Shown in pieces: positions 2,111 through 21,726 of a DNA stretch of 21,726 bases (within the stretch, counting starts at the first letter, position 1; each line of letters starts with the position of its first letter). This stretch comes from Thioalkalivibrio nitratireducens (GTDB lineage Bacteria; Pseudomonadota; Gammaproteobacteria; Ectothiorhodospirales; Ectothiorhodospiraceae). Position numbers and translations under genes: made by a program. Under the pieces are notes generated by a model. The model had not been told where the DNA came from and searched no databases. It saw nothing but the letters and a program-made list of their open reading frames with translations. The stretch is from NCBI GenBank assembly GCA_011390385.1, contig JAABSN010000043.1, forward strand, positions 1-21,726, read 5' to 3'.

Positions 2111-2258
2111 CTTACTATTAACCCGGCAACGAAATTCCTACGGTATTCGTTGCACGGCATTTGCGGCACATGTCCGCAAATGCCTTCGCTTCGCGGTCCC
2201 GGCCGTTCCGGCCGGGCATTCACCCGGCAATCTATTTGATTGCCGGGTTAATAGTAAG
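2111..2258 (+). repeat. 148-bp multi-hairpin repeat, copy 1 (complete)
   Basis: The ends are a 19-bp perfect inverted repeat: CTTACTATTAACCCGGCAA (2111-2129) and its reverse complement (2240-2258). Inside are four hairpins in a row. Hairpin 1 is CAACGAA/TTCGTTG (2127-2133 with 2146-2152). Hairpin 2 is GGCATTTGCGG/CCGCAAATGCC (2156-2166 with 2174-2184). Hairpin 3 is CCCGGCCG/CGGCCGGG (2198-2205 with 2209-2216). Hairpin 4 is ACCCGGCAATC/GATTGCCGGGT (2222-2232 with 2238-2248). A nearly identical direct copy begins near 21593. It lies between a terminator and the next gene start at 2288. No coding capacity or clear target-site duplication is visible. It could be a MITE, a REP/BIME-like element or a structured RNA. 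Confidence 0.93.
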
Positions 2259-2287
2259 CGTTGCCGGTATAGCGATCGCGTTTCTGC

Positions 2288-3226
2288 ATGATCCGTCTTT
2301 CGTCATGGCTGGACTTCATGCCGGTACCCGTGCGTAAGGGGCTCCGGATCGTGGTTGACGCCGGGCGAAACTGGATTGAAAGCCAGGCATTCATCTACGC
2401 TGCCGCACTGGCCTTCTTCACGACGTTCTCGATCGCGCCGGTGATGATCATGGCCGTTGCGGTTGTCGGCCTGATCCTGGGCCCGCGGGTCGCCGAGGGC
2501 GAATTGCTCGAGCAACTCCGGGGATTTGTCGGCCCGGAGGCGGCCAGCGCGGTCGAAACCGCCGTGCTCAATTCGCAGATCGATCAATCCGGTTGGCTGC
2601 CGATGATTGCGGGCATCGCGGCGACCATCGTTGGAGCCACAACGGTTTTCGCACAGATGCAGCAGTCCCTGAACGCCATCTGGGACGTTGCGCCACGTCC
2701 CAAGCGCAGCGGAATCTGGCGGTTCATCAAGGCGCGGTTGCTGTCGCTCACGGTGGTCCTGGCGATCGGTTTCGTCCTGTTGGTGTCGCTCGCGCTCAGC
2801 GTGTCTCTGCGCGCGGTCATCGTATTCGCCGAGCAATGGTTGCCCGTGCCGGGCTGGGTCATGGTTGGCGCCGAGATCGTGGTCTCGATGACCGTGGTGA
2901 CGTTGCTGTTCGCGGCCATCTTCAAGGTGCTGCCGGACGTGGTGCTCTCGCTTCGGGACGTGCTCGTCGGTGGTTTCGTGACCGCGCTCCTGTTCACGCT
3001 TGGCCGATCGCTGATCGCGATGTATCTCGCCAACACGGCAACGGCTTCGGCTTACGGTGCAGCAGGTTCATTGGCGTTGCTGCTGTTATGGGTCAATTAT
3101 TCGTCCCTGATTCTTCTGTTTGGTGCCGCGTTGACGCGGGCGCAGTTCGAAGCGCGTGGCCACGCGGTCATCCCCCGTAACGGTGCAGTGCGGGTGCACC
3201 GCCAGCTGGGCACCTCTGAACAATGA
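2288..3226 (+). CDS. YihY/BrkB family inner-membrane protein
   Basis: This 312-residue protein has the YihY/BrkB (formerly RNase BN) family layout. It has a first membrane helix after a basic N-terminus, with the motif AAALAFFTTFSIAPVMI (about residues 37-55), a soluble stretch with FVGPEAASAVE, then further hydrophobic segments, about six in all. The GATTVFAQMQQSLNAIWDV block and the AYGAAGSLALLLLWVNYSS block near the C-terminus are family hallmarks. It should sit in the inner membrane; the molecular function is not established in the family and transport is only suspected. No signal sequence is removed. ATG 2288 is the longest start, but ATG 2318 (MPVPVRK) is an alternative, and neither has an obvious Shine-Dalgarno site. 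The gene follows the multi-hairpin repeat by 29 bp, so that repeat lies in its leader or promoter region. Confidence 0.9.
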   Translation: MIRLSSWLDFMPVPVRKGLRIVVDAGRNWIESQAFIYAAALAFFTTFSIAPVMIMAVAVVGLILGPRVAEGELLEQLRGFVGPEAASAVETAVLNSQIDQSGWLPMIAGIAATIVGATTVFAQMQQSLNAIWDVAPRPKRSGIWRFIKARLLSLTVVLAIGFVLLVSLALSVSLRAVIVFAEQWLPVPGWVMVGAEIVVSMTVVTLLFAAIFKVLPDVVLSLRDVLVGGFVTALLFTLGRSLIAMYLANTATASAYGAAGSLALLLLWVNYSSLILLFGAALTRAQFEARGHAVIPRNGAVRVHRQLGTSEQ

Positions 3227-3716
3227 TGCACAAGCGCCGCGGGCGAGGCGGGCGAGCGAAGGCGTCCTTTCCGGGCCGTCAAGCGAGCGGAACGCAGTCC
3301 ACGGCGCTTGTGCGACGGCCCGGCGGGAGCCCCTGTGCCGGCACGACTCGGCGTTGCGTTTTTTGGCAAGGGAGCGCCCTTTCCAAGAGGCCTGACGCCG
3401 CGGATGAGCGCTTTCCGACTCGCCCGACGGGCGCGCGTCTGAGACGACATTGCGGCGTTGCAATGCTTGTAAATGGCGTGCCATTCACTGCGGAGTGCGC
3501 CTTGCACTGTCGACTCAGCCACGCTCTGAAAGTTACAGGATGAGTGGCGGGGTGCGCCAGGGCAAATGGAACGAATCGCGTTCCGGTTCGGCAAGTTTCG
3601 TATACTTCGATCACCGTGGCGAGCTCGCCAGCTTGCTCTGTTCAACGTCTGCGGGCCGTATCACGCTTCATTTCCCCCTTGATTTCCTCTGATATCCGAA
3701 ACGAGAATCTTCCATC
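3227..3716. other. 490-bp structured intergenic region
   Basis: I see no convincing gene here. Frames on both strands are Arg/Ala/Pro-rich shadows. The DNA is unusually rich in inverted repeats: GCACAAGCGCCG (3228-3239) with its exact complement at 3302-3313; CATTGC/GCAATG around 3448-3465; AATGGCGTGCCATT (3472-3485), a near-perfect palindrome; AGTGC/GCACT (3494-3508); and GGAACG/CGTTCC (3568-3573 with 3579-3584). TATACT at 3601-3606 resembles a -10 box but has no good -35 partner. The promoter of the amidohydrolase gene at 3717 should lie in the last part. Confidence 0.6.
3228..3313. repeat. 12-bp inverted repeat spanning 86 bp
   Basis: GCACAAGCGCCG at 3228-3239 and CGGCGCTTGTGC at 3302-3313 are exact complements separated by 62 bp. 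The left arm begins directly after the YihY-family stop codon. It lacks a T-run, so it is not a standard terminator. Confidence 0.7.
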
Positions 3717-21592: not shown

Positions 21593-21726
21593 TACTATTA
21601 TTAACCCGGTAACGAAATTCCTACGGTATTCGTTGCACGGCATTTGCGGCACATGTCCGCAAATGCCTTCGCTTCGCGGTCCCGGCCGTTCCGGCCGGGC
21701 ATTAACCCGGCAATCTATTTGATTGC
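21593..21726 (+). repeat. Multi-hairpin repeat, copy 2 (truncated by window end)
   Basis: From 21601 to the edge this matches 2118-2243 of copy 1 at 124 of 126 positions. The two differences are T21610 for C2127 and A21704 for C2221. The left end reads TACTATTATTAACCC and so has an extra TTA before the shared core. The orientation is the same as copy 1. The right end of the element is outside the window. It lies in the intergenic DNA downstream of the oxygenase gene. Confidence 0.93.

Follow-up and report, generated by a model that had tools for sequence, protein, structure and literature searches.

A 148-bp repeat at positions 2111-2258 of the window (the whole 21,726-nucleotide stretch of DNA analysed here) is very probably a non-autonomous MITE of the IS630 (Tc1/mariner) type, about 134 bp long, that has spread in Wenzhouxiangella of soda lakes and in relatives. 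The assignment follows from three observations: the ends match those of an IS630-family transposon, the copies are flanked by TA only, and relatives that lack the element have a single TA at the corresponding site. The sequence-level features of IS630-type MITEs were found together, as the element is small and non-coding with terminal inverted repeats, is dispersed, has TA on both sides and has ends in common with an IS630-family IS. A MITE moved by a transposase elsewhere was one of the readings offered in the first-pass annotation; the empty sites with a single TA at two loci, the dispersed copies and the IS630 element with matching ends spoke for it.

The repeat in the window

The repeat had an outer inverted repeat of 19 bp without mismatch (25 bp at 92%), and the inverted repeats I2, I3, I5 and I6 were detected within it, so that the 19-bp inverted ends and further inner inverted repeats described in the first-pass annotation were borne out. 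Its fold was very stable as RNA (z -9.7) and as DNA (z -9.3); none of 200 shuffles was as good in either case. The second direct copy reported earlier was also present. Copy 2 (21596-21726) was identical to copy 1 (2113-2243) at 128 of 131 positions, the differences lying at 2115, 2127 and 2221, and it is incomplete, with the contig and the window ending inside it. The earlier figure of 124/126 core positions became 126/128 over the shared element proper (2116-2243).

The inverted repeats held up and the 148-bp extent was corrected. On either side, the outer 5 bp (CTTAC/GTAAG) were counted as flank because 78 near-full copies from relatives had TATTAA...TTAATA as their consensus ends, 58 of them beginning with T and finishing with A. 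The element accordingly reads TA-TTAACCCGG...CCGGGTTAA-TA (2116-2253) and is short (<300 bp) and non-coding, with terminal inverted repeats and a length of 138 bp including TA (Table 1). The hairpins were present as described; their nested look is partly due to an end sequence that is repeated three times, because hairpin E consists of the right terminal repeat and its own inverted copy. The end of copy 1 lies 34 bp ahead of the first ATG of a YihY-like gene, in its upstream region (window 2253-2288). A sigma-70-like promoter scan of 1990-2320 returned 0 sites.

Table 1. Positions in the window of the MITE copies and their parts
Feature	Position	Strand	Basis
MITE copy 1 including flanking TA dinucleotides	2116..2253	+	Boundaries by consensus of the 78 near-full copies from relatives; TA at empty sites
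Element proper of copy 1, TTAA...TTAA	2118-2251	+	Same consensus boundaries as copy 1
Left TA of copy 1, presumed target duplication	2116..2117	.	Analogy with relatives' copies and empty sites
Right TA of copy 1, presumed target duplication	2252..2253	.	Analogy with relatives' copies and empty sites
Left end of copy 1	2116..2146	+	27/31 identical to left end of L265 IS630-family element
Right end of copy 1	2232..2253	+	22/22 identical to right end of L265 IS630-family element
Hairpin A (GCAACGAA...TTCGTTGC)	2126..2153	+	Inverted-repeat scan, pair counts
Hairpin B (GGCATTTGCGG/CCGCAAATGCC)	2156..2184	+	Inverted-repeat scan, pair counts
Hairpin D (CCCGGCCG/CGGCCGGG)	2198..2216	+	Inverted-repeat scan, pair counts
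Hairpin E, right terminal repeat and inverted copy around TATTT	2218..2252	+	Inverted-repeat scan, IS comparison, pair counts
MITE copy 2, incomplete at contig end	21599..21726	+	Copy comparison, profile hits

Dispersal and insertion at TA

When the genome_contigs collection was searched with a pattern built on hairpin B (22 fixed bases, loop 3-12), 42 contigs were returned: 31 labelled Wenzhouxiangella, 4 from one Gammaproteobacteria MAG (T3Sed10), 1 from a Gemmatimonadetes MAG and 6 others. More than 50 nt of the element was present by BLAST in 35 of the 42, and in none of the 6 others. All ten MAGs behind the first 36 contigs matched in whole-genome searches, with 2 to 40 matches each, and matches were found in 23 of 43 genomes of one bacterial family, that of one of the ten MAGs; these match counts include partial copies, lone hairpins and opposite-strand palindrome hits (weak rows) and are not clean copy counts. 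In one of the 23 genomes (G038) the traced match (L086, same sequence as L265) was an end of the partner IS. Full copies were about 138 bp long, and many were dispersed in one genome, as in G039 with 12 matches. The suggested check on relatives and copy number thus revealed a dispersed family and not just the window's two copies. A copy ended at a contig end in 12 of the 39 copies listed by BLAST, the window's copy 2 included, which is probably the usual effect of short-read assembly at dispersed repeats.

With an nhmmer model the fetched loci yielded 184 distinct hits, a number that includes hairpin E on the opposite strand; 78 of the hits were near full length. The near-full copies were mostly intergenic and occurred in all gene orientations. 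After 7 copies within 300 bp of a contig end had been dropped, and with gene calls that are rough, 32 of the remaining 71 lay between tandem genes, 21 between convergent and 11 between divergent ones; 5 fell within a called frame and 2 were unassigned. No match to the element was found in phage and plasmid records, and three viral_contigs patterns gave 0 matches. The single contig returned by a looser viral_contigs pattern (L001) was rejected, as it has a terminator-like hairpin that precedes a run of T. A 6,767-bp contig of the Gemmatimonadetes MAG (L003) held two copies of the element; it comes from a sediment series shared with Wenzhouxiangella MAGs and is probably a misbinned Wenzhouxiangella contig. 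At one G039 locus (L094) the element was flanked by runs of GGTGAAA-type short repeats, mutually inverted across the element.

Other repeats were noticed in the same genomes. The flank of locus L059 (G007:C52, about 2129-2300) contained a further dispersed repeat, about 170 bp long, whose inverted ends are GTGTCTCAGC/GCTGAGACAC. As a query (3346-3518) it had many matches in G007, G004, G033 and G035, and it is probably another MITE-like family. At locus L074 (G004:C273), several palindromes of the GTAGCCCGG type come after a RAYT-like gene for a Y1 transposase and make up a REP family distinct from the element; one like them adjoins copy L185.

The check for target-site duplications, also suggested by the first-pass annotation, showed that flank duplication in the 78 near-full copies was limited to TA. 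Beyond TA, exact flanking repeats of 3 bp occurred in 2 of the 78 (shuffled mean 0.7, maximum 3) and repeats of 4-9 bp in 0 of the 78; flank palindromy beyond TA was within the shuffle range. Empty sites were sought with the joined flanks of 16 copies in 17 genomes, which gave 17 candidate-site alignments, two pairs being aligned twice. At two loci, the TA that lies on either side of the element in filled sites was present once in relatives free of it. Locus 1 was empty, with a single TA, in four genomes: G007 reads AGC-TA-CTAA and, on the opposite strand, G032 and G039 both read CAG-TA-ACTG and G005 reads CAG-TA-GCTG. It was filled in G004 (AGT-TA[element]TA-TTGACC) and in G006 (CAG-TA[element]TA-GCTG), and G035 had an apparent truncated copy. 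G034 was not counted at this locus: it reads AGTTACTGACCCG up to the contig end, which would fit an unoccupied site as well as the beginning of a copy in decay. Locus 2 was empty in G035 (CGT-TA-GCC) and filled in G004 (TGT-TA[element]TA-ACC); its alignment (L186) with G010 was unreadable. The comparison of L077 with G005 was ambiguous by one base. At L027 the element was absent from G035 and G007, but the flanks differed too and the target was not clean. Sites L040 and L034 were too diverged to read. For window copy 1 there was no empty site among orthologues of the YihY-like gene, the upstream region being too diverged (nearest G013, 80% protein identity). These sites would look alike whether the TA was duplicated or the element was inserted, with no duplication, between the T and the A.

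The insertion at locus 1 in G004 lies at the end of a gene, where the TAC plus stop of relatives is replaced by TAT TAA from the element's own end; read by eye, the protein end appears unchanged by the insertion. The copies L184 (G004) and L009 (G006) occupy one and the same orthologous TA but face opposite ways, which suggests two independent insertions at a favoured site or an in-place inversion of the element.

A probable partner IS630-family transposon

The search for a transposase proposed in the first-pass annotation led, within the same family of bacteria, to an IS630 element whose ends match. Of the 43 family genomes, 5 had PF13358 (DDE_3, IS630 type), 4 of them above the cut-off. G038 has four copies and G017 one copy of the transposase gene within an IS of 1,100-1,112 bp, TA to TA, whose ends read TATTAACCCGG. 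The ends of the L265 IS agreed with those of the window element at most positions on the left and at every position on the right (Table 1). The L265 IS encodes a 345-aa transposase of the IS630 family (NF033545 transpos_IS630, 240.8 bits; PF13358), and the two transposases scanned, of 345 and 347 aa, scored 241 and 234 bits with NF033545. Three G038 IS copies of another type than L265 were 99.4-100% mutually identical, and this near-identity suggests recent activity.

The match of the ends extended to other copies. The right ends of 10 other MITE copies matched an L265 IS end at 20-21 of 22 positions in 7 cases and any IS end at 17-18 of 22 in the other 3, and the left end of one G001 copy matched the G017 IS end at 20 of 22. 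In the fetched loci, all 14 TATTAACC...GGTTAATA pairs spaced 0.9-1.4 kb apart (8 distinct places) were in loci with an IS630 transposase gene. A related transposase (E <= 1e-40) was present in 13 of 299 genomes drawn from the order, with identity above 75% only in G038 and G017. Among 12 other transposase loci from this order-wide search, TATTAACC was located at both ends of an IS-sized stretch in 3 (L299, L301 and L311), and no such end pair was seen in the remaining 9. The middle ~70 bp of the MITE (hairpins B-D) had no convincing match in the IS, and the MITE is therefore not a plain internal deletion of the IS.

No genome among those examined held many MITE copies together with an intact matching transposase. 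G038 had its four IS copies and two matches to the MITE query, of which the one traceable was an IS end. G017 had 5 such matches, and its transposase frame has a stop. In G039, whose 3.84 Mb chromosome-size contig makes up the whole listed size of the genome, the only IS630 frame was one of 211 aa at 41% identity. Most of the other genomes are many-contig drafts, in which multi-copy ISs are likely to be lost often.

Judged by its ends, the MITE is probably moved by a full-length IS630-type transposon whose ends it has copied. Both MITE ends would be bound by the DDE transposase of an IS630-family element that shares them, and the enzyme would cut the MITE out or copy it; the MITE would then insert at a TA, with the TA duplicated. 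The window copies may have been moved by an L265-type transposase or by a close relative that is now lost or unassembled. The inner hairpins would be passenger sequence that is kept palindromic at the DNA level.

Inner hairpins, rival explanations and known systems

Pairing was counted in an alignment of 50 of the 78 near-full copies (71 after removal of near-identical ones). In the four-stem structure, 92.9% of stem cells were paired, compared with 89.1% in shuffles; double-change cells numbered 68 against 19, and 11 of 46 pairs had at least one double change against 7.4, a value reached by 10 of 500 shuffles, in a test that is inflated by relatedness among the copies. Further pair types were not above shuffles (35 vs 33.4). 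RNAalifold returned a weak consensus of 23 pairs with a covariation term of -0.87, and thus differs from the pair counts on the strength of covariation. Mismatches over the four inner stems were G-T in 52 and A-C in 62 cases (A 8/8, B 26/17, D 5/13, E 13/24), with no G-T excess. When the two ends of the element were paired with each other instead, G-T mismatches (36) outnumbered A-C ones (18).

A structured RNA, or a selected 3' UTR RNA motif, would have its fold as the conserved feature, and the stable RNA fold, the excess of paired and double-change cells and the G-T excess in end-to-end pairing speak for such a reading. It is nevertheless very improbable. The window had 0 Rfam matches at the gathering threshold, the consensus fold was weak, further pair types were not above shuffles, the inner stems had no G-T excess and the copies occurred in all gene orientations. 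The fold and compensatory-change check suggested by the first-pass annotation was thus divided, with double changes above shuffles on one side and the RNAalifold result and the inner-stem mismatches on the other, and on balance its structured RNA did not find support. As the arms co-vary beyond shuffles while the four inner stems show no surplus of G-U, the symmetry is more likely to be maintained in the DNA itself, either through selection or through correction of one arm by the other as the DNA replicates.

A mosaic of REP/BIME-like palindromes spread by a RAYT (Y1 HUH transposase) would also be mostly intergenic, hairpin-rich and numerous, with partial and single-hairpin matches such as those seen here, and Y1 transposases were present in 19 of 43 family genomes. 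However, their presence did not track the element: they occurred in 9 of the 23 genomes with an element match and in 10 of the 20 without (8 of 22 and 11 of 21 if G038, whose traced match is an IS end, is moved). Y1/RAYT was rejected as the partner of the repeat on these counts, and the earlier suggestion of a BIME-like element lost its support with them. At the one RAYT-like locus inspected (L074 in G004), the GTAG-type palindromes after the gene were by eye of another sequence. The copies also have fixed ends with TA on both sides, unlike REPs (PMC3733652), and this origin is extremely unlikely. Judged by copy context and the core motif of attC, the prospect of an integron attC or other recombination site is virtually negligible: an imperfect palindrome of ~140 bp with hairpins resembles one, but the copies are dispersed and have TA and IS630 ends.

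With the IS630-type MITE as the preferred reading, some variation among the copies concerned the hairpins themselves. The right arm of hairpin B was replaced in 11 of the 50 aligned copies, breaking the stem. In this subtype (A2 columns 59-69 and 76-80; e.g., L186, L163 and L162) the arm reads CCGTGTAGGCC or similar, and in several of its copies CATAG took the place of TCGCG; recombination between variants of the repeat appears to be the origin. At the L027 site, G010 had a lone 36-bp hairpin E where G004 had the full element, a form that deletion between the 13-bp direct repeats ATTAACCCGGCAA would produce. It is rather unlikely that the non-IS interior is itself functional as a DNA cruciform or as single-strand hairpins, with symmetry kept by compensatory changes. 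If it were, the hairpins could aid the choice or copying of the element in replication, or reflect arm-to-arm correction, and the lone hairpin E could be a minimal deletion form or even a mobile unit of its own.

REP/BIME elements with RAYT are palindromic, intergenic and numerous like the MITE, which differs in having no Y1 association and fixed TA ends. Correia/NEMIS elements have an end sequence that differs from the MITE ends. The descriptions in PMC2229807 and PMC10969869 show these Neisseria elements to be similar in size (~107-155 bp), in TA termini, in terminal inverted repeats and in dispersal. As described there, Correia elements carry promoters and an IHF site, whereas the MITE had no sigma-70-like match in its surroundings. 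Passages on the Nezha MITE of cyanobacteria and ISNpu3-like elements (PMC3049150) likewise pair a MITE with an IS by end similarity; Nezha differs in host and sequence. The RUP element of Streptococcus pneumoniae is 107 bp long and intergenic, with ends like IS630-Spn1 and insertion at TA, and passages of PMC2229807 present its mobility as proposed on indirect evidence. In those passages and others in PMC3049150, IS630-Spn1 is the proposed mover, and direct proof of transposition is lacking for RUP as for the Wenzhouxiangella MITE. Both are, on these descriptions, non-coding, intergenic, of high copy number and highly base-paired, with IS630-like terminal repeats and TA insertion. RUP differs in sequence and host phylum. 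Unlike RUP, the Wenzhouxiangella MITE has several separate interior hairpins and an extra inverted terminal-repeat copy at its right end, and no single genome of the set has many MITEs and an intact IS together. By analogy, the Wenzhouxiangella MITE would most likely work like RUP.

The family appears to be new, and its kind is well known. No literature pairing Wenzhouxiangella with a MITE was found in a search that lay outside subscription journals and ISfinder; the three "repeat" passages of the Wenzhouxiangella AB-CW3 genome paper (PMC7691419) concern other matters, and the main text of a 2024 review of prokaryotic MITEs (PMC10969869) mentions neither Wenzhouxiangella nor IS630. The MITE reading explains a conspicuous repeat as a member of an ordinary class of passenger transposons and points to a likely partner. 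The set of related genomes, which includes one with a contig of chromosome size, lends itself naturally to studies of the upkeep and loss of hairpin-rich MITEs.
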